Origin: Rubripirellula reticaptiva
GTDB taxonomy: Bacteria; Planctomycetota; Planctomycetia; Pirellulales; Pirellulaceae
Length of the DNA stretch: 64,000 bases
NCBI RefSeq assembly: GCF_007860175.1
Contig: NZ_SJPX01000001.1
Coordinates: 1,054,001 to 1,118,000 of the forward strand
Direction of reading: 5' to 3'
The notes under the pieces were generated by a model, which did not search any database, was not told the origin of the DNA, and was given only the letters and a program-made list of their open reading frames with translations. Positions 226-31,755 of the stretch are shown in pieces. The translations under genes were made by a program, and so were the position numbers. Within the stretch, counting starts at the first letter, position 1; each line of letters starts with the position of its first letter.

Positions 226-231
226 TTCGGA

Positions 232-1161: not shown

Positions 1162-1205
1162 GAAGAGAATAGTCGTTTCTAGGATGTGATATCTTAAGGT
1201 TCGTT

Positions 1206-1231
1206 ACCCTTCTCGGAATGAGCGAGAGGGT
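1206..1231 (-). other. Stem-loop between rmlBC and rmlA
   Basis: Bases 1206-1215 (ACCCTTCTCG) pair with 1223-1231 (CGAGAGGGT), with one bulged T and a 7-base loop. It lies in the 82-base gap between the rmlBC stop and the rmlA start. There is no T-run behind it on the minus strand, so a full intrinsic terminator is unlikely. An mRNA-processing or stabilising hairpin that tunes the ratio of the two products is a plausible inference. Confidence 0.45.
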
Positions 1232-1243
1232 TGCAAAAGGTAA

Positions 1244-2833: not shown

Positions 2834-2886
2834 GTGAGTTTCCAGAAGAAAATTGAGTTTGTTCGCGCTGCGAGCTCTCTCCATTT

Positions 2887-2902
2887 TGCAAGTGTCGTTC
2901 CG
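2887..2902 (-). promoter_or_regulatory. Sigma-54-type (-24/-12) promoter of the rmlBC-rmlA unit
   Basis: On the minus strand the sequence reads CGGAACGACACTTGCA: GG (2901-2900) and GC (2889-2888) are spaced exactly as in the consensus TGGCACG-N4-TTGCA, with ACG and TTGCA also matching; only the first T and the C after GG differ. The predicted RNA start near 2876 leaves a leader of about 43 bases to the rmlB ATG. Function is inferred from pattern, spacing and the three similar sites nearby. Confidence 0.6.
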
Positions 2903-3156
2903 TATTGAAACCCAAAAACACGGAAAACTCTTCAAGCTTCCTTAACGTAAGCTAAGGTAGCCGAGCTCGCCATTAGCCGGGGAACAGCTAAGGAATCGCC
3001 TGATTTGATGATTCGGTTGAACGTGTTTTTCGTTAGCTTGCCCGAGAGTCAGATCAAATCGAGAAAAATGCTTCATCAGGATGAGTAAAGCGAGTTGTCC
3101 GAGTGGAATTCGTAGTCGCCTTGTTTGCCGGACCCTCACAGCTTCTCAATGTTTGT
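2903..3156. other. Divergent intergenic region between rmlB and the oxidoreductase gene
   Basis: The divergent gap 2834-3253 holds no convincing gene. It carries a sigma-54-type promoter facing each way (2887-2902 minus, 3156-3172 plus) and between them an A/T-rich stretch in which activator sites would be expected. One copy of GAGAAAAA lies at 3061-3068; the same octamer or its complement occurs three times upstream of the sigma-54-type site at 18123. A 65-codon frame at 2942-3139 on the minus strand has no recognisable features. Confidence 0.4.
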
Positions 3157-3172
3157 TGGGCTAGTAATTGCG
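3156..3172 (+). promoter_or_regulatory. Sigma-54-type promoter upstream of the oxidoreductase at 3254
   Basis: TTGGGCTAGTAATTGCG: TGG at 3157-3159 and TTGC at 3168-3171 have exact -24/-12 spacing, although the bases after TGG deviate from the consensus CAC. Transcription would start near 3183, giving a leader of about 71 bases to the ATG at 3254. Confidence 0.5.
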
Positions 3173-3253
3173 TTTTCGTTGCTTCCGAATCAAATTGGTG
3201 GCTGTTTCTAGGCGGCGGGTTGCCGTTCCAATGTTGTTGAGGGCGAAGGTTTC

Positions 3254-4402
3254 ATGCGTGTTGTGTTTGTCGGATGCGGTTTTGTCTCGTCCTTTTACGC
3301 TCGTACGATTCTGAACTACCCCCAACTGGTTCTGGCCGGCGCTACGGACATCGTTCCACAGCATGCTGACGAGTTTTGCAAACTCTACTCGACTAGGCAT
3401 TACAAGGACTTGGACGAAGTCCTCGCTGACGGTTCGGTCGACGCGATCGCGAATCTGACCAACCCGAAATACCATTATGAAGTTTCTAAAGCGGCACTTC
3501 AGGCGGGCAAGCACGTCTACAGTGAAAAACCGCTGGCGACCAATTTAGATCACGCCACCGAGCTGGTGAACTTGGCTAAAACGAAAGGGCTGCAGTTGTC
3601 CTCGGCGCCCTGCAACGTGCTTGGCGAGGCCGCCCAGACGATGTGGAAAGAAATTCGGAAAGGTTCGGTCGGAAAGGTTCGGTTGATTTATGCCGAAATG
3701 GACGACGGTTTGATCCACCAAATGGGCTGCGAGAATTGGGTCAACGAGATCGGTCGTCATTGGCCGGTCAAAGACGAATTCGAAGTCGGTTGCACGCTCG
3801 AACATGCCGGTTACTACGTGTCATGGTTGGTTGCGTTCTTTGGGTCGGTAAAGAGCATGACGACATTCCCTGCCGTTTTGATTGCCGACAAGGGAACGCC
3901 GGTCGATATCCAAACCCCCGACTTCACGGTCGTTTGCCTTCGGTTCGCTGACGGCGTTGTGGCACGCCTAACCTGCAGCATCGTCGCCCCTCACGATCAT
4001 CAAATGCGAGTCATTGGTGACGCTGGTACGTTGTCCGTCGAAGACTGTTGGTACTACGATTCGCCAGTCCATCTGGAGCCGTTTTCAAACCTCTCGATGC
4101 GACGACGCAAGATTCCGTTTATGACTCGGATCAAAGGGGTGCACCCGAGAAAAATTTCATTCGTGCGTAATCCCAAAATGCCTCACCGATATCGCACCGG
4201 TGGTCACAAAATGGATTTTGCACGCGGCATTGCCGAGATGGCGGATGCGGTGACCGAAGGACGCGACAGCCGTCTTTCCGCCGATTTTTCCCTACATATC
4301 AACGAGATCGTGCTGAAGATTCAGACGCCACCGGGCGGCAACACGACTCAGGAATTGACGACCTCAGCGGGTGAATTCAAGCCGATGTCTTGGGCGACTT
4401 AA
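3254..4402 (+). CDS. Gfo/Idh/MocA-family oxidoreductase
   Basis: 382 residues, a normal length for the family. The Rossmann fold opens with VVFVGCGFVSSFYAR, the family signature SEKPLATN is near residue 95, and a C-terminal Gfo/Idh alpha-beta domain starts around residue 130 (IYAEMDDG). Members oxidise or epimerise sugars or nucleotide sugars with NAD(P); the substrate here is unknown. GAAGG four bases before the ATG can serve as ribosome-binding site. It stands alone on the plus strand, divergent from rmlBC and convergent with the acyltransferase that ends at 4409, and has its own sigma-54-type promoter. That links it to the polysaccharide locus, perhaps to make an unusual sugar donor. Confidence 0.88.
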   Translation: MRVVFVGCGFVSSFYARTILNYPQLVLAGATDIVPQHADEFCKLYSTRHYKDLDEVLADGSVDAIANLTNPKYHYEVSKAALQAGKHVYSEKPLATNLDHATELVNLAKTKGLQLSSAPCNVLGEAAQTMWKEIRKGSVGKVRLIYAEMDDGLIHQMGCENWVNEIGRHWPVKDEFEVGCTLEHAGYYVSWLVAFFGSVKSMTTFPAVLIADKGTPVDIQTPDFTVVCLRFADGVVARLTCSIVAPHDHQMRVIGDAGTLSVEDCWYYDSPVHLEPFSNLSMRRRKIPFMTRIKGVHPRKISFVRNPKMPHRYRTGGHKMDFARGIAEMADAVTEGRDSRLSADFSLHINEIVLKIQTPPGGNTTQELTTSAGEFKPMSWAT

Positions 4403-4408
4403 GCCGCG

Positions 4409-4957
4409 TCACGATCGCATGATCACTCGCGCGGGAACTCCAACGGCAGTCGCGTTTGCGGGTACGTCTTTGATCACGACTGCATTAGCACCTATCTGCG
4501 AATGACAGCCGACGGTGACGCCGCCTAGAACGCAACCGCCGGCATGAACGTCGACATGTCCTTCCAATACCGGTAACCCTGGTACCTTTCCTACACCGAT
4601 CACAGTGTGAGCGCCGAGCAGACAATTTGGGCCGATCTTTGCATCCGGGTGAACCACCACGCCGGAAGGATGTGGCAGGATCAACCCGCCTGCGATGTGG
4701 CAAGTCAGTGGGATGTCGGCCGCAGAAACGATCGACCAAAAACGATGGGAAAACACCCAGCGTTTCTTGGCCACGATAGCCGCCAAACGCATCACTCCAG
4801 TTTGTGATGACCACCACTGATATCGCCGAATCGAGCGCAGCAATTTTCTTGATGGATCAAAGAACATTCGCGGTTCTTCGCGTGACCAATCCGGAGTCGT
4901 CGCCGATGGCATGGATGGCGCTGGGAACGAAGTTTTCGATGCCTGATGCGAGTTCAT
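4409..4957 (-). CDS. Serine-acetyltransferase-like hexapeptide acyltransferase (1 of 3)
   Basis: 182 residues. The C-terminal two thirds is a left-handed parallel beta-helix of CysE type, with hexapeptide turns (GLILPHPSGVVVHPDAKIG, LLGAHTVIG, VTVGCHSQIGANAVVIKDVP) and the closing GVPARVI typical of this family. The N-terminal third lacks the CysE helical domain, so a sugar O-acetyltransferase that decorates the glycan is more likely than cysteine synthesis. It begins 10 bases after the stop of the glycosyltransferase upstream and is probably co-transcribed with it. A second in-frame ATG at 4867 (31st residue) is a possible alternative start. Two paralogues are at 14514 and 17406. Confidence 0.8.
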   Translation of the reverse strand: MNSHQASKTSFPAPSMPSATTPDWSREEPRMFFDPSRKLLRSIRRYQWWSSQTGVMRLAAIVAKKRWVFSHRFWSIVSAADIPLTCHIAGGLILPHPSGVVVHPDAKIGPNCLLGAHTVIGVGKVPGLPVLEGHVDVHAGGCVLGGVTVGCHSQIGANAVVIKDVPANATAVGVPARVIMRS

Positions 4958-4967
4958 GGTGATGGAT

Positions 4968-6254
4968 TTAACTCGACGTCACAGCCAGCGGCATCGTCAT
5001 GGGCGTGCCGTTTTTTTCGGCGGCTTCGAAGGTCCACTGAGCGCGACGTCGATACCAATTTTCCGCGGCGTGATAGATCGCCGCTTCATGCGCTGCTTCT
5101 GAAAGCTGGGTCAGTTTTTCGGGTTGCATTGCCAGTTCGGCCAATCGTTTTGCCGAGTTTTCGATGTCGCCGCGAGGCATCAAAAAGGTGGCTGACTCAG
5201 CCGACTGGCGCTCGACACAATAGTCGATGTCATAAGCGATTAACGGTAGCCCCGTTGCATAACCATCAAAGATCATTCTTGGTGTGTCTTCGGCCAATGG
5301 CGTGAACAATAAACCGTCATACGATCGCAGCTTTTCGAACAACTCGGGACCGTATGCCATTCGGCCCAACATTCGAATTGCGGATCGCATTTTCAATTCG
5401 TCAATACGTTTCTCGATTTGATCAAGTTGCTCGCCGTGACCGATGATGTCGAATTCAATGGGGACGCCAAGTTCGTGACACTTCGCAACGATATCGATCG
5501 AGTCGACGATCCCTTTGCGTGGTGTCAATCGTCCGCAATAAACAAAGCGAGGCGCACGACCACTTGCGACACGGTTGGACAACGCATGACATCGATCTAC
5601 GATGAAATCGAGACTGACGATGTCATCAATGGAATAGGACGTGTCGTGGAACAGTTTGGCATTCTTGGCGTAACCGCCATATCGGTCGATGAGTTGTTGA
5701 CCTTTCAAAAGGCTTAGGCTTGCCTGGCCAACCGACTTTCGAGTCCACCGTTCAAACATCTTGCTGTAGCCAACGCTTAGACCACGGTGCAAAATATCGC
5801 GGTCTGCATGCAATTGGCGACACTGAACCGAGATGTCGGTGTCCTGCACGAACACAGTTGTGCGGCCTTGCCGAACGCCTTCAAGAAACCCTTCGTATGA
5901 AATTGGCCGATAAACGTCGTCTAATCCAGAGTGAACAACCTTGGCTTTCGAAACCGCGTCACGAAGTTGCTGTTTCCAACCCGACCGATGTTTCAACCAA
6001 TAATCGCGAATGGAACAATCAATATTGAACGAAGGGATCATTTGAAAGCCTTCGCCCGCCGCGTCGACCCTTTCGAGCGTCTGGGAAGATCCCTCGGGAT
6101 CATACGCGCACGACGGAGCGATAACAGCGATAGGGCCAAACCGGCCTTCTAACGAATCACGTAGTAACCTAAGAGATTCGATCCAATCGGTTGCCAGATA
6201 ATTGCCGCCGGCACCATCAACGTGGATGGGAACGTGAATGGCAATCAAGTACAT
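4968..6254 (-). CDS. Glycosyltransferase, GT4 (GT-B fold) type
   Basis: 428 residues. The N-terminal acceptor half opens with YLIAIHVPIHVDGAGG. The C-terminal half has the GT4 donor-binding pattern: FVYCGRLTPRKGI near residue 225, FDIIGHGEQ, then FTPLAEDTPRMIFDGYATGLPLIA, where the E of the usual EGLP/EGFG motif is replaced by the EDTPRMIFDG version. It should add one sugar to the lipid-linked repeat on the cytoplasmic face of the membrane; donor and linkage cannot be told. It starts 32 bases after the sigma-54 activator stop and is followed after 10 bases by an acyltransferase, so activator, glycosyltransferase and acyltransferase probably share a transcript. Confidence 0.82.
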   Translation of the reverse strand: MYLIAIHVPIHVDGAGGNYLATDWIESLRLLRDSLEGRFGPIAVIAPSCAYDPEGSSQTLERVDAAGEGFQMIPSFNIDCSIRDYWLKHRSGWKQQLRDAVSKAKVVHSGLDDVYRPISYEGFLEGVRQGRTTVFVQDTDISVQCRQLHADRDILHRGLSVGYSKMFERWTRKSVGQASLSLLKGQQLIDRYGGYAKNAKLFHDTSYSIDDIVSLDFIVDRCHALSNRVASGRAPRFVYCGRLTPRKGIVDSIDIVAKCHELGVPIEFDIIGHGEQLDQIEKRIDELKMRSAIRMLGRMAYGPELFEKLRSYDGLLFTPLAEDTPRMIFDGYATGLPLIAYDIDYCVERQSAESATFLMPRGDIENSAKRLAELAMQPEKLTQLSEAAHEAAIYHAAENWYRRRAQWTFEAAEKNGTPMTMPLAVTSS

Positions 6255-6286
6255 AGCGCACTCTTAACAGGAATGTCGATGAGAAA

Positions 6287-7708
6287 TCAGTAAGCTGATT
6301 TTGTTGCCGACTTGATTTGTTTTAGTTCGATGTCGAACCGTTTGATTTTTCGATAAATGGTGGCTTGACCAAGGCCAAGCAACTTTGCCGCTGCAACCGC
6401 GTTGCCGTTGGTGTCACGGAGCGCCGAAAGTATAGTTTTCTTTTCAACAGACTCCATTTGACTCAGGCCCGTTTCAGTCTCAGCTACGGCGCTTGCGGCA
6501 GATCGTGTTTCTGACTTGATTTCAATCGGAACGTTTTTGATTCCGATGTACGGCTCGCGAGCTAACAAAACCATTCGCGTGACTAAGTTTTCAAGTTGAC
6601 GAACGTTGCCTGGCCAATCATAAGCGACCAAACAATCCATTGCGTCTTTGGAAAAACCAACAACAGGACGGCGATGTGTCTCGACCGATTTTTCTAAGAA
6701 CGCTTCGGCCAAAATCGGGATGTCACTGCGGCGCTCACGCAAAGGTGGCATTCGAATGGGAAAGACATTTAATCGGTAGTAAAGGTCTTCGCGCATCAAG
6801 CCTTCGCTGACCATGTCTTGCGGTTCACGATTGGTGGCGGCGACGATACGAACGTTCGCGCTTCTGGCTTGATTGGAACCAACTCGCATGTAGGTGCCGT
6901 CCTGCAAAAACCGCAGCAGTTTGGCTTGCAGTTGGATGTCCATCTCGCCGATTTCATCCAGCATCAATGTGCCTTGATCAGCCGTCTCGCACCACCCTTC
7001 GCTCGTCGTATCAGCACCGGTGTACGAACCTTTCTCGTGACCGAAAAGAATGCTCTCCGAAAGCGTCGCGGGCAATGCTGCGACGTTAACCGGAACGAAC
7101 GGCATGTGACTGCGAGACGAGCAATGATGGATCGCGCGGGCAAGCAATTCCTTGCCGGTTCCACTTTCACCCAAAATCAAAACGGTGGCATCGGTTTCGG
7201 CAACATCGTGAACCAACTCCAGGACGTCTTGAACAGCTTGGCTCTCGCCTAAAATTCCAAAGTTACGAGAATCTGGCTCCAATTGACGGGAAGCCTCGTT
7301 CCGGCGTGATCGGTTTCGTGAATCGTTGTCTCGCACGGCGCCGTCAACTAGTACTCGCAACTGAAAGAGGTCAGGTGGATTTGCCACCACGTCAACAGCG
7401 CCCAATTTTGTTGCTCGAACCGCCAACCCGATGGTAGCATCTGCCGCCATCGCAATCACGGGAATTGACCGCCACGATTGTCCAAGCGTGCTCAACATCT
7501 CAAACCCGCATCCCTCGATACCCAGATCCAGCAGAATCAGGTCTGGCGGGCTAGTTGCCAATCGCTTTAGCAAGTCGTCCATGCACGACGTCGCAGTAAC
7601 TTCGTAGCCCCACTTCGTAAAATGCGAATGCACCGAACCGACGACGCTATTACCCTCGCAAGCAACGAGGATTTTAGGCTTTGACGATAGGCCGTGTGGG
7701 TGGACCAT
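6287..7708 (-). CDS. NtrC-type sigma-54 activator with atypical receiver domain
   Basis: 473 residues from the ATG at 7708 (a TTG at 7726 is an alternative). Residues 10-125 are receiver-like, with the phospho-acceptor context LILLDLG kept. The acidic pair is reduced to ACEG, the Thr/Ser position reads MAAD and the invariant Lys position reads VANPP, so normal phospho-switching is doubtful. The AAA+ domain (about 150-385) has Walker A GESGTGKE, Walker B LMLDEIGEM and WPGNVRQLEN; the sigma-54 contact loop is GSYTGA instead of GAFTGA. A Fis-type helix-turn-helix (GNAVAAAKLLGLGQATIYRKI) ends the protein. No partner histidine kinase is visible. Because it lies among four sigma-54-type promoters of polysaccharide genes, it is the obvious candidate regulator of the locus. 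Confidence 0.93.
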   Translation of the reverse strand: MVHPHGLSSKPKILVACEGNSVVGSVHSHFTKWGYEVTATSCMDDLLKRLATSPPDLILLDLGIEGCGFEMLSTLGQSWRSIPVIAMAADATIGLAVRATKLGAVDVVANPPDLFQLRVLVDGAVRDNDSRNRSRRNEASRQLEPDSRNFGILGESQAVQDVLELVHDVAETDATVLILGESGTGKELLARAIHHCSSRSHMPFVPVNVAALPATLSESILFGHEKGSYTGADTTSEGWCETADQGTLMLDEIGEMDIQLQAKLLRFLQDGTYMRVGSNQARSANVRIVAATNREPQDMVSEGLMREDLYYRLNVFPIRMPPLRERRSDIPILAEAFLEKSVETHRRPVVGFSKDAMDCLVAYDWPGNVRQLENLVTRMVLLAREPYIGIKNVPIEIKSETRSAASAVAETETGLSQMESVEKKTILSALRDTNGNAVAAAKLLGLGQATIYRKIKRFDIELKQIKSATKSAY

Positions 7709-7726
7709 GGCAACTAAGGTGGGCAA

Positions 7727-8600
7727 GTCGGGGCATGAACTTGTTTATGTGATCAAAGTGATCGCATGGAAATTTCAAAGATGTCAGCTTCCCAGACGCG
7801 GGAGTATTTGCTAACGCACAATCTTAGTGCGTCAGTCTGTTTCCGAGAAATCAGATGTCAATGCAGTTAACAGAAGACGGCATCTTTTTTGCCCTTAGCG
7901 TTAACGCAGCGTGAATCAGGACCGGGGCGATTCTGATTGTGAGGAATATTATACGCGGCAATCGCTCGCTGGGAGTGTTGAATCAAGGGGAAAGCGGTCC
8001 GAACGGTTGGAAACAGAACGGATTTTGCGTAGTCACTTGGTTTTGCTGTTCGACACCAAATGCTCGTAAAATCAAAGCTTTTGAGATCGAATGATGCCAC
8101 GTTCTTGTCTTGACTTCGCTTTTGGCATCAGCCGACCCGCGGGGGCGTATCTTCCCATCACAAGCTGATGAAACCAGGCTCAGTTTAACTGTGACATGTT
8201 TCGGCTTGCGCGATGGATGAATGCGGTTATGGAAGCGCATTATCGCTTAACACTGTGGATGATGAACGGTTGGTGATTGAATGAGTTTCAATTCATTGGC
8301 ATGCCGTTCTCTATCCGTCGCGACCTCGATTTGACGCTTTATCGAAATGATCGGCTTGCTTCGGGTGTTTTTATCATTCTCGCGTGCTGGCTTCTGCCAA
8401 TTGAAAATTGAAGTGAAGCGCGATCAAAAAATTTAATTTTCAGAACCTCGAGTTAATTTAGGTAAAGGGGGATAAGGTCGCCTTAGGCATCGGTTGTAAC
8501 ATTTCATAGCCCCCCAAGATTGACCGTCGCTTGGATGGTTGCGGCCGAACGCTACAAAGAACCTGCGAAACCGCGCTTCTTGGGTTGTTTGCGTGGCGGG
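7727..8600. other. Long non-coding region upstream of the main polysaccharide operon
   Basis: Close to 900 bases between the activator gene and the Wzy-like gene. Minus-strand open frames at 7867-8100, 7983-8240 and 8433-8777 show no domain, signal peptide or ribosome-binding site, and they overlap one another or the next gene. I see no tRNA or other structured RNA. The region is A/T-rich around 8400-8470 and probably holds the activator promoter and upstream activator sites for the sigma-54-type promoter at 8601. Confidence 0.4.
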
Positions 8601-8616
8601 TGGTACACGTTTTGCC
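8601..8616 (+). promoter_or_regulatory. Sigma-54-type promoter of the Wzy-Wzz-glycosyltransferase operon
   Basis: TGGTACACGTTTTGCC: TGG (8601-8603) and TTGC (8612-8615) have exact -24/-12 spacing, and A and C after TGG also fit TGGCAC. The predicted start near 8627 gives a leader of about 79 bases. The site overlaps an imperfect inverted repeat (GTACACGT against ACGTGTATAC, 8603-8624), which might bind a regulator. Confidence 0.6.
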
Positions 8617-8705
8617 ACGTGTATACGACGTCCACCCGGCTGACGTTTGAGGCAGTCCAGGCTCTGGTTCGTCTTCAAGTGTTTCTTTTTTAGCTCTGTT
8701 GTTTC

Positions 8706-10097
8706 ATGTTCTTCATCTTCGCTATCGTCATCGCCGCCGTGCTGGCGCTTGCTGCCGTCACCGGCGGGCCGTCTCATGCTATGCGCGTGGCTTGGTTGAG
8801 CATGTTGTTTGTTCCTTCGTGGTTGGCGCGAGGCGTTGGATCAATGACCGTCGATCTGCGGATGGTTACCGTGGTGATGGTCGTGCCGATTGCAATTTTC
8901 GGTGGCCGACTTGTCCGGCGGCTTAACTTGATCGACGCGATGGTGTTCTTGTTTCTTGGGATTGGTATCACTTCGCTCTTCCAGTCCGACTCGGCGTCGC
9001 CGACGGAGGTTGCTGCGGTCCTTGGCACCTTGTTGCTGCCCTACTTCTTCGGACGAATCCTGATTGGATCTCTGGCTGATCTTCGCGCGTTGGTGCCTTG
9101 GGCCTGTGCTGCTTGCATCGGGCTGTCGGTGTGGTCGGTATTTGAATCGACCACCAAAATCAATCCGATCAATGTATTGGCCCAGCGAACTGGATCGTTC
9201 AACTCCGAATCCGGTAACCGTATGAACTTGCGCCGCGCCGAAGGGCCACTAGGACACCCGATTTATTTCGGGATGACGCTGGCGATGTTGTTTCCTTGGG
9301 CTGCCGAGGGTGCTCGTTTGGCTCGCAAGCGTCGCTTGTCGCCAGTTTTCTTGTTGACGCCTGTACTCTGCGTGCTAGGTGTTTTCGGAACGATGTCGCG
9401 TGGCCCGATGCTCGCACTCGCCGCTTCTGCAGTTGCGGCTTTGTTTTTCTACCTTCCCTTGCTGAGGTTGCCCTTGATTGGATCGGCCCTCTTGGGCGGT
9501 CTTCTGATGTTTTCGATTTGGCCGACCGTGGTCGAGCAACTTGAATCATTCTCGGGTGAGAAAGCAGAGTATGTCGTTAATATTCAAGGCAAAGATCACG
9601 CCTACACGGGGACCAAGCACCGCGAACTTTTGTATTACGTCTATGCGGATGCCATGGAACAGGCGGCATGGCTTGGTCATGGAAAATGGGGTTCAAAAAT
9701 CACTCACGAGATCATGCTCGAACCGCACCTTCGCGCTCAATTTCGTTCGATCGACAACCACTACATCTTGTTGCAGTTGAGTTGGGGGCTGCTGGGTCTG
9801 GGAGCGTTCCTCATGCTCGGTGTAATGGTCGTTGGCGGCGGCAGTTTGCTTGCCATCTACATTGATCCCGAAGATCGTCTGCTGATTGGTGGGATCACTG
9901 GTTCAATCGCAGCGATCATGTTGTTGTTGCTAACGGTATGGTTGGCATCCGACTTTGGATTCGTATGGTTGATGCTCGTCGGCATGTTAAGCAGTGCAAT
10001 TACTGCCTGGATGAATCGAAGCTCGTCGCAACCTGCCGTCTCGCCTGTTCCAATTCCAGCAGCAGTTCCTTTGACCGTCTCATTTGGGCCGTCATAG
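8706..10097 (+). CDS. O-antigen ligase/polymerase-like membrane protein (Wzy type)
   Basis: 463 residues, strongly hydrophobic, with about ten predicted membrane segments and one large periplasmic loop between roughly residues 290 and 350. The motif RRAEGPLGHPIYFG before the loop is typical of the Wzy_C/O-antigen ligase group, which joins lipid-linked oligosaccharide repeats, or transfers them, at the periplasmic face. With a co-polymerase directly downstream (72-base gap) and a flippase further on, polymerisation of the exopolysaccharide is the likeliest role; ligase activity cannot be excluded. It is the first gene after the sigma-54-type promoter at 8601. No clear Shine-Dalgarno precedes the ATG. 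Confidence 0.82.
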   Translation: MFFIFAIVIAAVLALAAVTGGPSHAMRVAWLSMLFVPSWLARGVGSMTVDLRMVTVVMVVPIAIFGGRLVRRLNLIDAMVFLFLGIGITSLFQSDSASPTEVAAVLGTLLLPYFFGRILIGSLADLRALVPWACAACIGLSVWSVFESTTKINPINVLAQRTGSFNSESGNRMNLRRAEGPLGHPIYFGMTLAMLFPWAAEGARLARKRRLSPVFLLTPVLCVLGVFGTMSRGPMLALAASAVAALFFYLPLLRLPLIGSALLGGLLMFSIWPTVVEQLESFSGEKAEYVVNIQGKDHAYTGTKHRELLYYVYADAMEQAAWLGHGKWGSKITHEIMLEPHLRAQFRSIDNHYILLQLSWGLLGLGAFLMLGVMVVGGGSLLAIYIDPEDRLLIGGITGSIAAIMLLLLTVWLASDFGFVWLMLVGMLSSAITAWMNRSSSQPAVSPVPIPAAVPLTVSFGPS

Positions 10098-10169
10098 CCA
10101 AAACAAAATCAATCGTATTCCGTTCAAATCTCATCAACCGGTTCAATCGCCAAGTTAAAAGAATCTGAA

Positions 10170-12263: not shown

Positions 12264-13534
12264 TCCTTGGACTAGCTAATGCTGAATTTGAAATCGTCCA
12301 ACCTGTTTTGGCATCGGGGTGGATCACGGCGTTTGAGTGGACGATTGGGATGGTGGCGGTGACCTTCTTGATCCCCACCTTCATGTTGATGGCACAGTGT
12401 GTCGTGGGTTCCTTCCCTCGTCGTCGGTCGATTGATATGCCAACGCAATCAATCGGACGGCCGAGCGTCGATGTGCTGGTGCCAGCCCATAACGAAGAAT
12501 CCGTTATCGGAGCCACGATCGATTCGATTCGTCGTCAGTTGATGCCGGGCGATCGCTTGCTGGTGGTTGCTGACAACTGTAATGACGGAACGGCCGACGT
12601 GGCACGCGCGTTCGGTGCGGTGGTGACGGAGCGTTTTGACGATACCAAGCGGGCCAAAGGTTTCGCCGTTGACCACGGATTGAAGATCCTGCAACAAGAA
12701 CCTCGCGACGTCGTCTTGATGGTTGATGCGGATTGCGATGTCGTCGATGGCTCAATCGATCGATTGGCACGTTTAGCTATTTCGACGGACGGTCCGGTTC
12801 AAGCAAACTATCAGATGCCAGCCGCACAGAGCGGCGGAGCGTGGGGAGCGGTTTCAGGGTTTGCAACCACCGTGAAGAACCAAGTCCGTCCACTTGGTTT
12901 GCACCGGCTTGGATATGGTTGTGTGTTGTATGGATCGGGAATGGCCTTTCCATCGGCGCTGGCAAGTCGCCCCAATTGGGCCAGTGATAACATTGTCGAA
13001 GACATGAAGGTCAGCTACGACTTGATGATTGACGGACACTCGCCCCACTACTGTCCCGAAGCGATTGTTCGCGCTTCGTTGCCCGCTGAGCGTGGCAATG
13101 CGTTGGAGCAACGTAAAAGGTGGGAGCACGGTCACCTGCATACGATTGCGACCCAAACGCCGCGTTTAGTTGGATCCGCAGTCACGTCGGCACGGCCAGC
13201 ATTATTGGTCGCGGCGATCGATTTGTTGATTCCGCCCTTGGCATTGTTGGTTCAGTGTTGGGTCGTCTCGATGCTAAGCATTTTGGTTGTCACTTGGACA
13301 ATGCCGGTAAGTCATTTGCCATTGATCTTGATGACACTTGCCGGTGGATTTTTAGGGTTTGGTGTCATGACGGCTTGGTACGCTCACGGGCGAGATCAAC
13401 TGACAATCAAGCAGTTGTGCATTGTGCCGTTCTACGTGTTGAGCAAGTTCCCGTTGTATGTTGCCGCAATTTTCCGACGGCAAAAAACATGGCGCCGAAC
13501 AGACCGAGATTCTGCAAATGAGGTATGTGCTTAG
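12260..13534 (+). CDS. Membrane-bound family 2 glycosyltransferase (processive-like)
   Basis: 424 residues starting at TTG 12260, inside the TTGA overlap with the upstream stop; GGAG at 12249-12252, seven bases before it, supports this start. An N-terminal membrane segment (about 20-45) precedes a GT2 catalytic domain: VDVLVPAHNEES, the metal-binding VDADCD, a D-rich VEDMK acceptor motif and QRKRWEHGH, the Q/RxxRW-type motif of processive enzymes. Two or three membrane segments follow near 305-400. It resembles inverting GT2 enzymes that add a backbone sugar at the cytoplasmic face. It overlaps or nearly abuts the next gene, so expression is coupled. Confidence 0.85.
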   Translation: MILGLANAEFEIVQPVLASGWITAFEWTIGMVAVTFLIPTFMLMAQCVVGSFPRRRSIDMPTQSIGRPSVDVLVPAHNEESVIGATIDSIRRQLMPGDRLLVVADNCNDGTADVARAFGAVVTERFDDTKRAKGFAVDHGLKILQQEPRDVVLMVDADCDVVDGSIDRLARLAISTDGPVQANYQMPAAQSGGAWGAVSGFATTVKNQVRPLGLHRLGYGCVLYGSGMAFPSALASRPNWASDNIVEDMKVSYDLMIDGHSPHYCPEAIVRASLPAERGNALEQRKRWEHGHLHTIATQTPRLVGSAVTSARPALLVAAIDLLIPPLALLVQCWVVSMLSILVVTWTMPVSHLPLILMTLAGGFLGFGVMTAWYAHGRDQLTIKQLCIVPFYVLSKFPLYVAAIFRRQKTWRRTDRDSANEVCA

Positions 13535-13545
13535 CACTGTTCGTC

Positions 13546-14514
13546 ATGCATACATCTGTTGTTATCGTTAATTACCGAACTGCCTCGTTAACATATGATT
13601 GTCTTGAATCACTTGCAAAGCATGTGGTGGGACGTTCCGACGTACACGTTACGTTGGTCGATAATTTGTCGGGCGATGATTCTGTGTCCCAGCTTCAGTC
13701 GGCGATCGATGATCGTGGTTGGAAATCGTGGGTCACACTGATGCCGCTTGATCGAAACGGCGGGTTTGCGTTCGGAAACAACGCAGCGATTCGAGAAGTC
13801 TTGGCGGCGGATGCCGAGCGAAAGCCCGACTACGTTTGGCTGTTGAACCCGGACACTTTGGTTCGGGAAGGATCGCTCGAGAAATTGATCGCGTATTTGG
13901 AAGCAAATCCGCAGTGTGGTTTAGTGGGCAGTCGACTTGAGGATCCTGATGGCACGCCTCAGCGGTCGGCATTTCGGTTTCCTAGTTTGGCCAGTGAGTT
14001 TGATGACGGACTGCGACTTGGTCTGGTATCGAAGGTGTTATCAAGCAAAACTGTTGCACCACCGATTTCTAATACGGCCGTCAAGACTGGCTGGGTGGCC
14101 GGTGCCAGCATGTTGGTTCGTCGCGAAGTATTTGAAGATGTTGGTTTGCTTGACGACGAGTACTTCATGTACTACGAAGAGACCGATTTTTGCCGACAGG
14201 CCTCGCTGGTTGGTTGGTACTGTGCGTATGAACCGGCCAGTCGTGTGGTCCATTTAGTTGGCCAAGCCTCGGGGGTCACGATTCGCAATGCCGTTCCGAA
14301 ACGCCGACCGCAATACTGGTTCGACTCACGTCGCCGGTACTTTGTAAAGAACCATGGCGCTGTCTATTCCGGATTAGTCGATGTGGCTTGGGCAGTTAGT
14401 TACGCGTCCTGGTGTGTGCGATCAAAATTGCAAGGCAAACCCAGCTACGACCCACCGAAGTTGTTGGTTGACTTCGTTCGAAACAGCGTTTGGATGCGTG
14501 GGGTGACAACTTGA
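13546..14514 (+). CDS. Family 2 glycosyltransferase, WbbL/rhamnosyltransferase-like
   Basis: 322 residues from the ATG at 13546; an in-frame ATG at 13525 would overlap the previous gene by 10 bases and is the alternative. The fold starts at once with SVVIVNYRT, then NGGFAFGNNAAIR, LLNPDT (the DXD-equivalent), GWVAGASMLVRREVF and EETDFCRQA. This set is typical of WbbL-like GT2 enzymes, many of which transfer rhamnose from dTDP-rhamnose, the nucleotide sugar made by the rml genes here. The sugar assignment is inference. The stop TGA shares one base with the ATG of the next gene (TGATG). Confidence 0.85.
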   Translation: MHTSVVIVNYRTASLTYDCLESLAKHVVGRSDVHVTLVDNLSGDDSVSQLQSAIDDRGWKSWVTLMPLDRNGGFAFGNNAAIREVLAADAERKPDYVWLLNPDTLVREGSLEKLIAYLEANPQCGLVGSRLEDPDGTPQRSAFRFPSLASEFDDGLRLGLVSKVLSSKTVAPPISNTAVKTGWVAGASMLVRREVFEDVGLLDDEYFMYYEETDFCRQASLVGWYCAYEPASRVVHLVGQASGVTIRNAVPKRRPQYWFDSRRRYFVKNHGAVYSGLVDVAWAVSYASWCVRSKLQGKPSYDPPKLLVDFVRNSVWMRGVTT

Positions 14515-15119
14515 TGGATTCGGTGAACCCCTCTGTATTCACGCTGATTCGCGAGGATTATCGAGCCAATGGCAGCGATTGGCACCGGCCCGGATTCCGT
14601 GCCTTGGCCACGTATCGCTATGGCGTTTGGCGAATGAGTTTTAAGTATCGAATCGTTCGAATATTGCTGGGGGTTTTTTACAAGGTTTGTCAGCGCCGGT
14701 GCATGCATGTGTATGGGATTGAACTTCCCTATTCAGCAAGCATCGGCCGCAACGTTACGATTGAACATCAGCATGGGATTGTGGTTCATGGTGCTAGTGT
14801 CATTGGCGATGGTTGCATCATCCGCCAAGGGGTGACGCTGGGGATCCGAGACGAAAAGTGCTTGGACCAGGCACCCCGGTTGGGTAAACGGGTCAGCGTT
14901 GGCGCCGGTGCCAAAATTCTTGGCGATGTTACCATTGGTGACGATGCAAAGATTGGTGCAAATGCGGTGGTGTTGTGTGATGTTCCGGCCGGTCAAACCG
15001 CTGTTGGCATTCCTGCGCGTGTGATTTGCAAGAAAACACATTCCGATCGCGACGGCTTTGATAACGGTGAATCTGAGTCGCAGCATGCAAGTTCTTCGAT
15101 CAACGAGGCACTCGCATGA
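14514..15119 (+). CDS. Serine-acetyltransferase-like hexapeptide acyltransferase (2 of 3)
   Basis: 201 residues from the ATG at 14514, which overlaps the upstream stop by one base (TGATG). After a helical N-terminus (FTLIREDYRANG), the hexapeptide helix runs from SIGRNVTIEHQHGIVVHGA through IRQGVTLG and VTIGDDAKIGANAVVLCDVPAG to GIPARVI. Unlike true CysE it is short and ends in a polar Ser/Asp-rich tail. Sandwiched between two GT2 genes, it is best read as an O-acyltransferase acting on the nascent glycan. The downstream gene overlaps by ATGA. Confidence 0.82.
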   Translation: MDSVNPSVFTLIREDYRANGSDWHRPGFRALATYRYGVWRMSFKYRIVRILLGVFYKVCQRRCMHVYGIELPYSASIGRNVTIEHQHGIVVHGASVIGDGCIIRQGVTLGIRDEKCLDQAPRLGKRVSVGAGAKILGDVTIGDDAKIGANAVVLCDVPAGQTAVGIPARVICKKTHSDRDGFDNGESESQHASSSINEALA

Positions 15120-16129
15120 ACTTAAGTGAAAACGTACGAAACGAAGTCGGTGTGGTCGCGATTGGACGCAACGAAGGCGAACGTCTCAAGCGTTGTCTGC
15201 AATCGGTCCAGGGTTACCGCGCGGTCGTGTATGTGGACTCGAATTCTTCTGACGCCAGCGTCGACATGGCCAAACAGATGGGCGTGTCGGTGGTCGAGCT
15301 TGATATGTCGAAGCCGTTTTCAGCGGCTCGGGCACGCAACGAAGGGTTCGACCGGTTGATGGAGTTGTTTCCTGAAACGAAGTACGTGCAGTTCGCTGAT
15401 GGCGACTGTGAGATCGTGAAAGGATGGATCGATCGAGCGGTATCGGAAATGGACCAAGATTCGGCTCTAGCCGCAGTCGCGGGGCGTCGACGCGAACGCT
15501 ATCCAAGCTTTTCGATTTACAACCAACTGTGTGATATGGAATGGAACACACCGGTTGGTGATGCCAAAGCATGCGGTGGCGATGCGTTGTTGCGGACTGC
15601 AGCGCTTTCGCAGGCGGGTGGATACAACCCGGTTGTGATTGCCGGCGAAGAACCCGAGTTGTGTGTTCGGATGCGATCAATGGGTTGGAAGATTCGTCGC
15701 GTTGATTGCGAGATGACACTGCATGACGCCGCAATGACTCGGTTTAAACAGTGGTGGCGGCGGATGCAAAGAAGCGGCCACGCGTATGCTCAGGGTGCGA
15801 ACATGCACGGTGGCGCTCCTGAACGTCACTGGGTACGAGAGTTACGAAGTATATGTTTCTGGGCATTCGTTGTGCCACTGATCAGCCTTTTGTTGGCGTG
15901 GCCAACATCCGGGCTAAGCCTTTTGCTATTGATAGGGTATCCCGTTTTGATGAGGCGAGTCTATCGCTACTACCAAGGACGTGGGTTCACAAATTCGGAC
16001 GCAAGATTGGCCGCTATTTTTGATGTACTTGCTAAGTTCCCCCAATTCGTCGGCGTTGCGGTTTTTTACGTGAATCATTTACAGTCCAAACACACAAAAC
16101 TAATTGAATATAAGGGAGCCACCCAATGA
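15116..16129 (+). CDS. Family 2 glycosyltransferase
   Basis: 337 residues. GT2 motifs: VVAIGRNEGERL at the start, VVYVDSNSSDAS, the metal-binding FADGDCE, CGGDALLRT and the acceptor-side GEEPELCVRMR near residue 180. Two membrane segments (about 240-285) and a basic C-terminus anchor it to the inner face of the membrane. The ATG is embedded in the ATGA overlap with the previous stop and is preceded by GAGG at seven bases. The substrate is unknown. The gene runs by another ATGA overlap into the next glycosyltransferase. Confidence 0.86.
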   Translation: MNLSENVRNEVGVVAIGRNEGERLKRCLQSVQGYRAVVYVDSNSSDASVDMAKQMGVSVVELDMSKPFSAARARNEGFDRLMELFPETKYVQFADGDCEIVKGWIDRAVSEMDQDSALAAVAGRRRERYPSFSIYNQLCDMEWNTPVGDAKACGGDALLRTAALSQAGGYNPVVIAGEEPELCVRMRSMGWKIRRVDCEMTLHDAAMTRFKQWWRRMQRSGHAYAQGANMHGGAPERHWVRELRSICFWAFVVPLISLLLAWPTSGLSLLLLIGYPVLMRRVYRYYQGRGFTNSDARLAAIFDVLAKFPQFVGVAVFYVNHLQSKHTKLIEYKGATQ

Positions 16130-17409
16130 GTGTCTTCGTAGAAACACGCCGGCAAATCAGTGAGCTTCCAGTTTCATCACCGACACCGGAATTTACAGGG
16201 AAGATAGCCTACTTGGTAAATCAGTATCCCTTTCCTAGCGGAACATTCATTCGTCGTGAAATTGAAGCAATGGAGAATTTTGGAGTCCAAGTTGTTCGGT
16301 TTGCAATTCGTCAAACAGATGTTCGCCTTTCTGAGCCGAAGGATTTAGTCGAGGCGTCGCGAACTCGAATCGTTCTAAATCTCGGTGTGATCGGTTTGTT
16401 TTCAGCGGCATTTGTCACGGCGCTGACAAGTCCCGGGAAATTTCTGAAGACGCTTGCCCTGACCATCAAGCTTGGCTGGCATTCCGATCGCGGTTTGTTC
16501 TGTAACTTGATTTACTTTCTAGAATCCTGCCAGCTAACACGTTGGTTGATTCAGGAAAAGGTCGAACACTTGCATGCCCACTACGGAACGAATCCGGCAG
16601 CGGTTGCGATGTTTTGCCGATCGCTTGGCGGTCCAACTTATAGTTTCACCATTCACGGCCCGCATGAATTTGACAAGCCACATTTCTTAAGACTCGGCGA
16701 AAAGGTGGCTCGTTCGAAGTTCGCAGTAACGATTAGCGAATACGGTCGTAGCCAGCTTTATCGGTGGACTGAACGAGAGCATTGGGGAAAGATTGCGGTT
16801 GTTCACTGTGGTCTCGATAAGAATTACTTCAGTCGAGAGCTCACACCGCCGCCTGCTGCCCGACGACTAGTTTTTATCGGTCGATTGGACGAGCAGAAGG
16901 GAACACACCTGTTGGTCGAAGCTGCCAAATTATTGCATGAAGACGGGGTCGATTTCCAATTGACCATGGTAGGTGATGGACCGATGCGTGGCGAACTCGA
17001 GACCATGATTCAGAGCTATGGACTCGATGAATGTGTTCGCTTAGCAGGTTGGCAGAACGATGACGAAGTCCGTGAGTCGCTGCTAGATTCTCGAGCACTT
17101 GTATTATCAAGTTTTGCCGAAGGCTTGCCCGTTGTGATCATGGAATCTTTGGCGATGGGACGGCCTGTTATTTCAACCAACATTGCAGGCGTTGGCGAAT
17201 TGGTTCAGCCGGGTGTTTGTGGATGGCTGGTTCCCGCCGGTGCGGTTAGACCACTTGCCGATAAAATGCTCGAAGCGATTGAAATGCCTGTTGATCAATT
17301 GGCACAGTACGGCAAGGCTGGTGCCAGATTGGTGATGGCACATCACAATGCGATAACTGAAGCCGAGAAGCTTGCTCGATTGATTGGTTTGACCGAAATC
17401 CACTCATGA
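16126..17409 (+). CDS. Glycosyltransferase, GT4 type (colanic-acid WcaL-like)
   Basis: 427 residues. The N-terminal half has the WcaL-like start IAYLVNQYPFPSGTFIRREI and HAHYGTNPAAVA, then FTIHGPHEFD. The donor-binding half has RRLVFIGRLDEQKGTHLLVEA, MVGDGPMR and the E-x7-E signature SSFAEGLPVVIMESLAMGRPVI. This is a retaining GT4 acting on lipid-linked repeats. AAGGGAG seven bases before the ATG is the strongest ribosome-binding site in the operon, possibly reinforcing translation midway. It overlaps both neighbours by ATGA. Confidence 0.9.
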   Translation: MSVFVETRRQISELPVSSPTPEFTGKIAYLVNQYPFPSGTFIRREIEAMENFGVQVVRFAIRQTDVRLSEPKDLVEASRTRIVLNLGVIGLFSAAFVTALTSPGKFLKTLALTIKLGWHSDRGLFCNLIYFLESCQLTRWLIQEKVEHLHAHYGTNPAAVAMFCRSLGGPTYSFTIHGPHEFDKPHFLRLGEKVARSKFAVTISEYGRSQLYRWTEREHWGKIAVVHCGLDKNYFSRELTPPPAARRLVFIGRLDEQKGTHLLVEAAKLLHEDGVDFQLTMVGDGPMRGELETMIQSYGLDECVRLAGWQNDDEVRESLLDSRALVLSSFAEGLPVVIMESLAMGRPVISTNIAGVGELVQPGVCGWLVPAGAVRPLADKMLEAIEMPVDQLAQYGKAGARLVMAHHNAITEAEKLARLIGLTEIHS

Positions 17410-17957
17410 AATACGACGGAGATACGGTAAAGGCTTGGGCGGGCGATAGCCAATGGCGAGCCTGGCGTGCAGACCTTGCGAGGTTCAAGAAGCAAGGTCA
17501 TTCAGGTTGGGGATCCGAGGGTTTTTGGGCTTTGACCTTGTATCGCATGCAACGTGCGATCGTGTTAAGCAAGTATCGACAGGCTTTGTTACCACTGAAA
17601 ATGTTGCTGACACTCGTCAACAAGGTTTTCACGGTGGTTACTCTGATCAACTTGAACAAGAACGCCCCCATCGGTCCGGGCCTCTTCATTCCTCACGGTG
17701 GCCCCATCATCGTGCATCCCGATGCCAGCCTAGGGGCTGATTGTGCAATTCATCAAGTTTGCACCATCGGCGCGGGATCCAAGCCTGGCGCGCCACAGAT
17801 CGGTGACCACGTGATGTTGGGTTGTCACAGTTGTGTGCTTGGGCCCGTTGTGATTGGCAATGGGGCTAAAGTCGGTGCCGGGGCGGTCGTGACATCGGAC
17901 GTACCCGCGGGTGCAACCGCCGTCGGTGTCCCAGCGAAACCACTTGGAAAGGGTTGA
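17406..17957 (+). CDS. Serine-acetyltransferase-like hexapeptide acyltransferase (3 of 3)
   Basis: 183 residues. An N-terminal helical part (WRAWRADLARFKKQGHSG, then FWALTLYRMQRAI) is followed by a CysE-like hexapeptide helix: GPGLFIPHGGPIIVHPDASLG, HQVCTIG, PQIGDHVMLGCHSCVLG, GAKVGAGAVVTSDVPAG and GVPAKPL. It is the last gene of the coupled string that runs from 12260 without any intergenic gap larger than 11 bases. It belongs to the same group as the proteins at 4409 and 14514 and probably adds acyl groups to a different sugar or position. Confidence 0.83.
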   Translation: MKYDGDTVKAWAGDSQWRAWRADLARFKKQGHSGWGSEGFWALTLYRMQRAIVLSKYRQALLPLKMLLTLVNKVFTVVTLINLNKNAPIGPGLFIPHGGPIIVHPDASLGADCAIHQVCTIGAGSKPGAPQIGDHVMLGCHSCVLGPVVIGNGAKVGAGAVVTSDVPAGATAVGVPAKPLGKG

Positions 17958-17969
17958 AAAATCAGATTA

Positions 17970-17993
17970 TTTTTCTCATGTTGACGAGAAAAA
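17970..17993. other. A/T-rich inverted repeat after the acyltransferase gene
   Basis: TTTTTCTC (17970-17977) and GAGAAAAA (17986-17993) are perfect 8-base arms with an 8-base spacer, just after the stop at 17957. A third copy, TTTTTCTC, is at 18022-18029. Low G+C makes it a poor terminator. A regulator binding site for the downstream sigma-54-type promoter, about 130 bases away, is at least as likely. Confidence 0.35.
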
Positions 17994-18056
17994 ATTACCA
18001 ATCCGATCAACTGAAGCGACGTTTTTCTCTCATCGAACTGATGACAATACCGCTAA

Positions 18057-18072
18057 CGGGGATCAAACCCCG
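18057..18072. other. Small G/C hairpin in the promoter region of the sugar transferase gene
   Basis: CGGGG (18057-18061) pairs with CCCCG (18068-18072) across a 6-base loop, with GCTAA/CTAACC-like flanks. No T-run follows. It may end the upstream transcript weakly or be an operator. Confidence 0.3.
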
Positions 18073-18122
18073 CTAACCGACTTCAACGGGGTGCATTTCA
18101 ACGCCCCAAATTACCCTTTTTG

Positions 18123-18139
18123 TTGGCATACCGGTTGCA
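18123..18139 (+). promoter_or_regulatory. Sigma-54-type promoter of the sugar-transferase unit
   Basis: TTGGCATACCGGTTGCA: TTGGCA and TTGCA sit at exact -24/-12 spacing, the best match of the four sites to the consensus TTGGCACG-N4-TTGCA. The predicted start near 18150 leaves a 98-base leader before the ATG at 18248. Confidence 0.68.
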
Positions 18140-18247
18140 ATCTTTGGTGGTCGAAGGGCGGTTCCGTGCGGGGCTTGATCGCAGCGACAAAGTCGTGATC
18201 ATTGCCGCTACTTAGACTTCTGACTCGATATTCTCCTGTGATACACC

Positions 18248-18937
18248 ATGTCCACTGTTTCAGCTAATGATTTTGCTACGATCCGCTACGACCGATTTGC
18301 TCGTCGTTTTGCGAATCTCGTCCGTAGTGCTTTCAGTTACGATCGTCTGAAGCGTTTGACTGATGTGGTGATTGCATCGACGGTGATTGTGATTCTGTCG
18401 CCCATGTTCGTGATTGTGGCGTTGCTGATCAAATTCACGGACTTCGGGCCGATACTGTTTGTACAGACTCGAATCGGCCAAGACGGCGTGCCGTTCTCGT
18501 GTTTGAAGTTTCGCTCGATGCGAGTCAACGCGGACGAGTTGAAGGCAAAGTTGCTTTCAGAAAGCCATCATAAAGATGGTCGTACGTTCAAGATGCGTAA
18601 AGATCCGCGTATCACTTCGATCGGCCGGATCATTCGTAAATTCAGCATTGACGAAATGCCACAGCTTTGGAACGTCGTGCGTGGCGAGATGAGCTTGGTT
18701 GGCCCTCGTCCATCATGCCCGCAAGAGGTGGCGATCTATCATCGCGAAGATTGGCAACGGCTTCAGGTCAAGCCAGGTTTGACTTGCATTTGGCAGGTTC
18801 GTGGTCGCGGTGACATCCCCTTCGAACAACAAGTTCAAATGGATCTCGAGTACGTCGAAGAGCGTAGTCTATGGCTCGACTTTAAGTTACTTGTCTTGAC
18901 TGTCCCCGCGGTTGTGCTTGCCAAGGGTGCCTACTAG
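18248..18937 (+). CDS. Undecaprenyl-phosphate sugar phosphotransferase (bacterial sugar transferase)
   Basis: 229 residues, the compact monotopic form of the family (PglC/WcaJ catalytic domain). One hydrophobic re-entrant segment (about 38-62, VVIASTVIVILSPMFVIVALL) is followed by the conserved block: RIGQDGVPFSCLKFRSM, DPRITSIGRIIRKFSIDEMPQLWNV, GEMSLVGPRP and KPGLTCIWQVRGR. It transfers a sugar-1-phosphate to undecaprenyl phosphate and so starts each polysaccharide repeat unit. It is the first gene of a short unit with a glycosyltransferase and the flippase downstream, behind its own sigma-54-type promoter, so the committing step of synthesis would be controlled separately from the main operon. 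Confidence 0.95.
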   Translation: MSTVSANDFATIRYDRFARRFANLVRSAFSYDRLKRLTDVVIASTVIVILSPMFVIVALLIKFTDFGPILFVQTRIGQDGVPFSCLKFRSMRVNADELKAKLLSESHHKDGRTFKMRKDPRITSIGRIIRKFSIDEMPQLWNVVRGEMSLVGPRPSCPQEVAIYHREDWQRLQVKPGLTCIWQVRGRGDIPFEQQVQMDLEYVEERSLWLDFKLLVLTVPAVVLAKGAY

Positions 18938-18971
18938 TCCCCTTTGAAGCTACTTTCGAATCATTCGACGA

Positions 18972-31535: not shown

Positions 31536-31755
31536 GGTATTGGGGGGTAAGTGGTCAGAAGCAAGCGATCAGATTCGACTAGTTTAGCGAATCATCCCAG
31601 CGAGTACTGTTGCGGAACGCCGCGGTTGTTCAATTCTGAAACGTGTGGTTTCAAGTTTGCATCAATGATTTACGGAAAAAGCCGTTGGCACAGTATCTGC
31701 GATGCGTCTGGGACGCGGTGTTTGTCTCAATCCATGTATTGCTGGAAACCTATTC

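Follow-up and report, generated by a model that had tools for sequence, protein, structure and literature searches.

Sigma-54 control of exopolysaccharide genes is described as established in phyla other than the Planctomycetota (PMC5552954, PMC3162934, PMC1569441). The present analysis concerns an exopolysaccharide locus of the planctomycete Rubripirellula reticaptiva, which spans approximately 0.2-26.6 kb of a stretch of 64,000 nucleotides (the window; G000:C1:1054001-1118000 of the 7.85 Mb source genome G000). Three predicted sigma-54 promoters of this locus, those of rmlBC-rmlA, the Wzy operon and the initiating sugar transferase with a flippase, are probably driven by the local sigma-54 activator via pairs of upstream dyads. 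The PrsK/PrsR/PEP-CTERM system of Proteobacteria (Haft et al. 2006, PMC1569441) likewise combines an NtrC-like activator with an upstream motif and a sigma-54 core before exopolysaccharide-linked genes. In that system, the TTTACA end of motif 1 is about 63 nt upstream of the core and a kinase gene lies near the regulator gene, whereas the dyads of this locus read wTTTMYC-N5-GATC at 131-264 bp and no kinase gene was found among the 30 open reading frames (ORFs) of the window scanned. The PrsR motifs were common to Proteobacteria only, among the species discussed in that paper (PMC1569441). Identification of the activator as PrsR was rejected, with 343.6 bits against the cut-off of 502.6 bits of TIGR02915 and no PrsK among the same 30 ORFs. 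BerB of Burkholderia cenocepacia (PMC5552954) is likewise a sigma-54 activator promoting exopolysaccharide production. A cyclic di-GMP input is evidenced for BerB, which acts via a second regulator, BerA, whereas here the cores stand directly before biosynthetic units. Exopolysaccharide genes are also targets in the general sigma-54 control of the cell exterior described by Francke et al. (2011, PMC3162934), whose main text does not contain the words planctomycet-, Rhodopirellula or Pirellula. Predicted sigma-54 regulons of many phyla (PMC12316311) were based on computed promoters, as here, and included Planctomycetia, where passages on envelope genes name MscS channels and not exopolysaccharide loci. 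Among the titles and abstract openings listed in a literature search, none concerned a planctomycete exopolysaccharide locus under sigma-54 control. Predictions of individual promoters may nevertheless have been published; Studholme and Dixon reportedly wrote on Pirellula activators in 2004 (cited in PMC2754498).

The initial annotation of the window had placed sigma-54 sites before four transcription units and had named a sigma-54 activator gene in the locus. All four strings were present, with GG-N10-GC (12 bases start to start) and TTGC in four of four and TGG in three of four. Recalculated distances from the predicted transcription start to ATG were 43, 71, 79 and 98 nt, matching the claimed 43-98, and the activator was recovered by Pfam at 6287-7708 on the minus strand. 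A sigma-54 regulon of the locus was well supported for three of the four units, which showed conserved cores and shared dyads, and not for the oxidoreductase unit. The sites are as follows, with scores of the cores in a sigma-54 weight matrix.

2902 to 2887, minus strand: sigma-54 core of rmlBC, CGGAACGACACTTGCA, score 13.9
3049-3067, minus strand: main dyad (putative upstream activating sequence) of rmlBC, TTTTCTCGATTTGATCTGA, 165 bp upstream of the core
3071-3089, minus strand: second, weaker rmlBC dyad, TTTACTCATCCTGATGAAG, 22 bp from the first
3157-3172, plus strand: claimed fourth sigma-54 site (oxidoreductase), TGGGCTAGTAATTGCG, score 6.9, unsupported
8337-8355, plus strand: main dyad of the Wzy promoter, CTTTATCGAAATGATCGGC, 264 bp upstream of the core
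8369-8387, plus strand: second Wzy site, TTTTATCATTCTCGCGTGC, 32 bp downstream of the first
8601-8616, plus strand: sigma-54 core of the Wzy operon, TGGTACACGTTTTGCC, score 13.1
17971-17989, plus strand: second, weaker transferase dyad, TTTTCTCATGTTGACGAGA, 22 bp upstream of the main dyad
17993-18011, plus strand: main dyad of the transferase promoter, AATTACCAATCCGATCAAC, 131 bp upstream of the core
18124-18139, plus strand: sigma-54 core of the initiating sugar transferase gene, TGGCATACCGGTTGCA, score 17.0

What the sequence comparison shows directly is the presence and conservation of cores and dyads, how often the two occur together relative to background, and the conserved DNA-binding helix of the activator. 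The dyads were not part of the initial annotation and, judged by sequence, would form an enhancer-like element of the three promoters. They were compared in the source genome, its congener G001 and G159 of another genus. The nine main dyads (three promoters in three genomes) gave wTTTMYC-RAWNY-GATC, with one exception at two positions. Relative to the core, the main dyads of G000 and G001 lay at -165 and -165 (rmlBC), -264 and -267 (Wzy, TTTTATCGAAACGATCACC in G001) and -131 and -131 (transferase, AATTATCAATTCGATCAAT in G001). The weaker second sites (TTTNMTC) were offset by 22 bp for rmlBC and the transferase and by 32 bp for Wzy, corresponding to approximately two and three helical turns. 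The same offsets were present in G001, with similar letters for rmlBC (TTTGCTCATCCTGAGGAGC), 16 of 16 identical letters for Wzy (GTTTTTATCATTCTCG) and TTTTATCACTTGAAGTGAT for the transferase. The gaps of G001 were otherwise mostly diverged, with a mean of 8-9 matching letters per 20 around the dyads in ungapped comparison (rmlBC 9.1). The best 20-bp segments, anchored at the main dyad, reached 19/20 for rmlBC and 18/20 each for Wzy and the transferase, and were located on the main dyad (rmlBC, transferase) or on the second dyad (Wzy).

A dyad matrix was trained on G000 and G001 only. In G159, which was unused for training, the three gaps held dyads at about -178 for rmlBC (GTTTCTCGATTTGATTCAT, score 13.0), -192 for Wzy (TTTTATCGTTCTGATCGTC, 15.2) and -145 for the transferase (TTTTACCAAACCGATCACT, 16.0). 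Background dyads of G000 amounted to 0.9, 2.0 and 6.0 per 100 kb at scores of at least 16, 15 and 13, respectively. The three dyads of G001 were the top three matrix hits of 60 kb, training copies included. When one promoter class at a time was left out, the left-out class was recovered in both G000 and G001, at expected chance hits per region (G000, G001) of 0.07 and 0.02 for rmlBC, 0.22 and 0.01 for Wzy and 0.03 and <0.001 for the transferase.

Background upstream regions were taken from 40 (later 43) stretches of 20 kb of G000, approximately one tenth of the genome, with genes called by a caller of our own. The combination of a core of at least 10 and a dyad of at least 13 in an upstream region was present in 0 of 422 background regions and in four of 26 regions of the window, three of which were the locus promoters. 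Frequencies elsewhere were 2/24 (G001), 2/34 (G159), 0/23 (G034), 0/27 (G059) and 3/20 (G042, of another family). A strict dyad pattern, TTMYCRAWNYGATC, matched 41 times in G000 and 50 times in G001. Four genus genomes without the activator had 27-34 matches, and the pattern alone is therefore not diagnostic. The locus accounted for four of the 41 matches of G000; three of these four were intergenic, and each of the three preceded a strong core. The other 37 comprised 36 coding matches and one intergenic match by our gene caller; one of them (coding) had a core of at least 11 within 350 bp, and none was both intergenic and accompanied by such a core. The regulon had been called self-contained, and within the sensitivity of this pattern, intergenic strict dyads with a strong core were indeed confined to the locus. 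A copy of the pattern, TTCTCGATTTGATC, which agrees with the rmlBC dyad in all 14 bases, was also seen at 5410-5423 (plus strand) inside the glycosyltransferase gene at 4968-6254. A general role of dyad and core at PEP-CTERM genes was rejected. Across 30 fetched loci of seven genomes, out of many more matches, a core of at least 12 on the strand of the match was detected in three, two of them downstream of the match start, and one of the three also had a dyad of at least 11.

Close orthologs of the activator were rare among the candidates scored. Only G000 and G001 matched at E<=1e-110 among 22 genus genomes. At 1e-98, the matches among 241 family genomes were G000, G001, G159 (59% identity) and G245 (46%), and the same four genomes were returned at 1e-95 from 396 genomes drawn from the order; the family- and order-wide searches scored six and four candidates per genome, respectively. 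Both the activator and the locus were carried by G001 (84% activator identity) and G159 (59%). In G245, the first 20 kb of the contig gave no match to the exopolysaccharide proteins of the window. The best 80 of 455 relatives from a contig scan were 35-47% identical, and among loci L004-L111 three had a match to a second protein of the window's exopolysaccharide locus. A plasmid search gave 34 records, all below 60% identity, with ZraR among the five listed.

The three strong cores recurred before the orthologous genes in both of the other genomes with activator ortholog and locus. In G001, these were TGGCCCACCAATTGCT (rmlBC, score 14.3), CGGTACAGCGTTTGCA (Wzy, 13.1) and TGGCATGTGGCTTGCT (transferase, 17.5), and in G159 CGGAACGGGAGTTGCG (rmlBC, 11.05), CGGTACAGGTTTTGCG (Wzy, 10.24) and TGGCATCTCGCTTGCG (transferase, 11.91). 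The core letters YGGTACA-N4-TTGC of Wzy and TGGCAT-N5-TTGC of the transferase were kept in all three genomes, and CGGAACG-N4-TTGC of rmlBC in G000 and G159. Conservation thus covered the rmlBC, Wzy and transferase sites, and the fourth site had no convincing counterpart. Of 30 initiating-transferase loci fetched, 28 were outside the G000 and G001 loci; among these, cores within 700 bp of the match reached at least 13 in 2/28 and at least 11 in 8/28; sigma-54 control of initiating transferases is therefore not shown to be general.

Chance expectation was calculated for the locus gaps, which comprise 3,907 sense bases. The pattern TGG-N8-TTGC occurred 18 times on both strands of the window and on the sense strand of 17 of 398 background upstream regions (40 stretches of 20 kb), compared with 6-16 for wrong-spacing controls. 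Within the locus gaps it was seen three times against 0.70 expected (P 0.034), its YGG variant four times against 1.27 (P 0.040) and a matrix score of at least 13 three times against 0.53 (P 0.017). The initial estimate of well under one chance hit was roughly right. At these P values the four sites by themselves are only marginally above chance and weak evidence, and bare pattern counts, with P of only 0.03-0.04, were rejected as sufficient proof. The matrix nevertheless picks up a real signal, since cores of at least 13 were present in 13 of 398 background regions in sense and in three in antisense, with a mean of 1.6 in first-order Markov copies. A core of at least 10 was reached by 31/398 regions. 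On this genome sample, three sites of the locus were strong and the oxidoreductase site was background-like.

That all four sites, including 3157, are sigma-54 promoters, with the divergent rmlBC/oxidoreductase pair sharing one enhancer, is unlikely. The 3157 site does have TGG, GG-N10-GC and TTGC, and the main rmlBC dyad at 3049-3067 is also 108 bp upstream of it, a workable distance. Its score of 6.9, however, is near level 7, which was reached by 70/398 background regions in sense, 50 in antisense and a mean of 48.5 in Markov copies. The oxidoreductase gene gave no blastn match in 60 kb of G001, where a glycosyltransferase gene was found in its place. In G159, the oxidoreductase ortholog (61%) was located elsewhere in the locus behind a gap without dyad, the sole core of at least 10 in this gap (10.3) ending about 8 bp before the start codon. 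With a background-like score and no convincing counterpart, the 3157 site was rejected as an established promoter.

Several observations weigh against regulation of the three remaining units by local activator and dyads. The sigma-54 weight matrix was drawn up by hand. Only three genomes, two of one genus, had both a clear ortholog and the locus, and the second dyads are weak, their fixed offset having been compared in G000 and G001 only. The three main dyads of the window ranked 2, 4 and 6 of 64 kb, training copies included, with a coding match (5408) in first place. A fourth combination of core and dyad in the window, at 31686/31430, was outside the locus and its dyad was coding. The scores of the three cores of G159 were exceeded by other cores of the same stretch, for instance those preceding the activator (13.05) and a further gene (15.69), and a core of 10 was reached in 6 of its 34 upstream regions. 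The top dyad of 80 kb of G159 (19.3, 12819-12837 of L229-L232) and two more of at least 13 were outside the three gaps. The 12819 dyad was located in the gap before a glycosyltransferase gene, where the best adjoining core scored 9.1; it possibly marks a fourth regulon unit. The rmlBC gap of G042 held dyads and no core of at least 8. In G001 and G159, two of the three combinations each were scored with our gene caller. The third ones (transferase in G001, rmlBC in G159) were seen in the separate comparison of gaps and were probably missed owing to the called start and the threshold.

The activator comprises a degenerate receiver, a sigma-54 AAA+ domain (PF00158, 1.4e-66) and a Fis-type helix-turn-helix (PF02954, 9.2e-10). 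At the position of the GAFTGA loop it reads GSYTGA in G000 and GAYTGA in G159. A single rpoN match was detected in G000, outside the locus (Sigma54_DBD, 212.4 bits). In alignments judged by eye, the receiver kept the central D; in G000 and G001 the acidic pair was C-E, and T and K were replaced by A and N, and in G159 the acidic pair was not recognisable. An intact set of phosphorylation residues (acidic pair, D, T/S, K) was absent from the receiver in this comparison, which was based on L007, L011 and L029, with the misaligned rows L006, L013 and L015 left out. No histidine kinase was found among the 30 ORFs scanned with Pfam, which are part of the ORFs of the window. Because the receiver is degenerate and no kinase was found among these ORFs, phosphorylation by a partner kinase appears unlikely. 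As the receiver is without most phosphorylation residues, our guess is that the input is a ligand or protein partner, more likely than a cognate kinase. FleQ and VpsR are NtrC-type regulators of polysaccharide genes which also have atypical receivers and act partly independently of sigma-54; unlike there, strong sigma-54 cores are present here.

With 20 activator matches at E<=1e-60 in G000, another activator might bind the dyads of real sigma-54 promoters while the local gene regulates something else, which we consider improbable. Dyads, cores and activator co-occurred in each of the three genomes that carry both a clear ortholog and the locus. G034 has related Wzy, transferase and glycosyltransferase genes and no close activator, and it also was without the cores: no core of at least 11 was present within 400 bp of its called genes, and one region reached 10. 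The recognition helix, QATIYRKIKRF, was identical in the orthologs of G000, G001 and G159. In a search of eight genomes with the DNA-binding domain, five matched at E<=1e-6, G000 with this gene only. We infer that the dyads are bound by the activator of 6287-7708 rather than by a paralogue, and that the genes depend on this activator. A housekeeping promoter, terminator or small RNA underlying the conserved islands, with coincidental GG/GC matches, is very improbable, for although long gaps occur (that before Wzy is about 1 kb) and the E. coli-type sigma-70 consensus scan may miss planctomycete promoters, that scan gave no right-strand match in the three gaps and nine over 1-19000 against 13.3 in shuffled sequence, no Rfam match at gathering thresholds was found in 1-26000, and the promoter-specific core letters recurred in three genomes.

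In the proposed circuit, sigma-54 RNA polymerase would switch the locus at the three promoters of rmlBC-rmlA, the Wzy operon and the initiating transferase with flippase. The local activator would bind the dyad pairs 131-264 bp upstream, on about the same helix face, and remodel the closed sigma-54 complex via DNA looping. Supply of dTDP-rhamnose, polymerisation and chain initiation would thereby be turned on together. Surface polymers likely shape attachment and aggregation of planctomycetes. The predicted circuit is small and testable: it consists of a single activator, three promoters and a defined enhancer sequence, and is conserved in two genera. Its enhancer motif can be used to search for planctomycete sigma-54 regulons. 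The circuit also draws attention to a family of activators whose receiver seems to have lost the capacity for phosphorylation, which allows the signal to be sought directly.

Parts of the circuit were also detected in G042. On its contig C1, at approximately 1.485-1.493 Mb (L186), a tandem family of eight small proteins with a C-terminus of the VPE-(M/A/L)...W..LAG.G.V.YRR type was located beside exopolysaccharide genes; four of these proteins were tested and had no NCBIfam match. A core of at least 11 together with a dyad of at least 11 was present before 6/8 of their genes in sense and 0/8 in antisense, and this looser test hit 3/517 genes of G000. The initiating transferase of G042 had a core of 12.9 and a dyad of 11.1 at -143. 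The activator homologue of G042 was at another place, beside rmlBC, rmlA and rmlD. These dyads and cores suggest that the circuit may predate the genus and may have been partly rewired. It is conceivable, though somewhat doubtful, that it is a branch of an old planctomycete surface regulator, in which a kinase-independent sigma-54 activator with a degenerate receiver would use one dyad type to turn on both polymer synthesis and a set of exopolysaccharide-linked surface proteins of the VPE type. The receivers of the activator homologues of G042 (L312) and G059 (L189) look degenerate too, as judged by eye. Their loops, GSFTHA and GSFTSA, respectively, are unusual where sigma-54 contact is expected. 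Before the initiating transferase of G059 (17342 of L188), a strong core, TGGCACGAGAGTTGCC, was observed with a palindrome, TTTCTCATCCTGAGAAG, 174 bp upstream. The dyad score of the palindrome was only 8.6; its segment CTCATCCTGA also occurs in the second rmlBC dyads of G000 and G001.

The first part of the locus encodes RmlA-like, RmlB-RmlC fusion, oxidoreductase, hexapeptide transferase, glycosyltransferase and sigma-54 activator proteins. It is followed by Wzy, a probable chain-length regulator, several glycosyltransferases, the initiating sugar transferase, a flippase, a sulfotransferase, a TolC-like protein and RmlD. The genes of the transcription units and the activator gene are listed below; the chain-length regulator, without Pfam match, was assigned by eye.

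232-1161, minus strand: nucleotidyltransferase gene (rmlA-like), next gene of the rml unit (Pfam NTP_transferase)
1244-2833, minus strand: rmlB-rmlC fusion gene, first of the rml unit, start ATG 2833 (Pfam and NCBIfam)
3254-4402, plus strand: GFO/IDH/MocA oxidoreductase gene (Pfam)
6287-7708, minus strand: sigma-54 activator with degenerate receiver, AAA+ and Fis-type helix-turn-helix, likely start ATG 7708 (Pfam)
8706-10097, plus strand: Wzy_C-type polymerase/ligase gene, heading the long operon (Pfam)
10170-17957, plus strand: remaining Wzy operon with probable chain-length regulator, glycosyltransferases and hexapeptide acyltransferases (Pfam except chain-length regulator)
18248-18937, plus strand: initiating sugar transferase (Bac_transf, Pfam 3.3e-66)
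18972-21777, plus strand: glycosyltransferase and Wzx-type flippase, after the transferase (Pfam)

The fusion gene at 1244-2833 encodes dTDP-glucose 4,6-dehydratase (RmlB) and an RmlC-like epimerase domain in one protein. Outside the locus, the sigma-54-like core at 31686-31701 (plus strand), TGGCACAGTATCTGCG, directly preceded the leading ORF of a run of glycerol kinase, dehydrogenase and aquaporin genes and was paired with the coding-region dyad match at 31430. Its best homologue in G001 had a weaker core (11.6) and no dyad, and five other fetched homologue loci (L316-L320) had no core of at least 9. A positive example for the core matrix was G000:C3:200001-220000 (L150), with six cores of 14.2-16.3 in 20 kb. 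These precede 3401+, 5073+, 11024-, 11987+, 14639+ and 17397+, and the downstream genes include DUF1206, DJ-1/PfpI, BON, DUF892 and a receiver protein, several of which read as stress genes; L150 is perhaps a second, stress-type sigma-54 cluster. A single ORF of 2,928 codons was present at 40035-48821 on the minus strand of the window.

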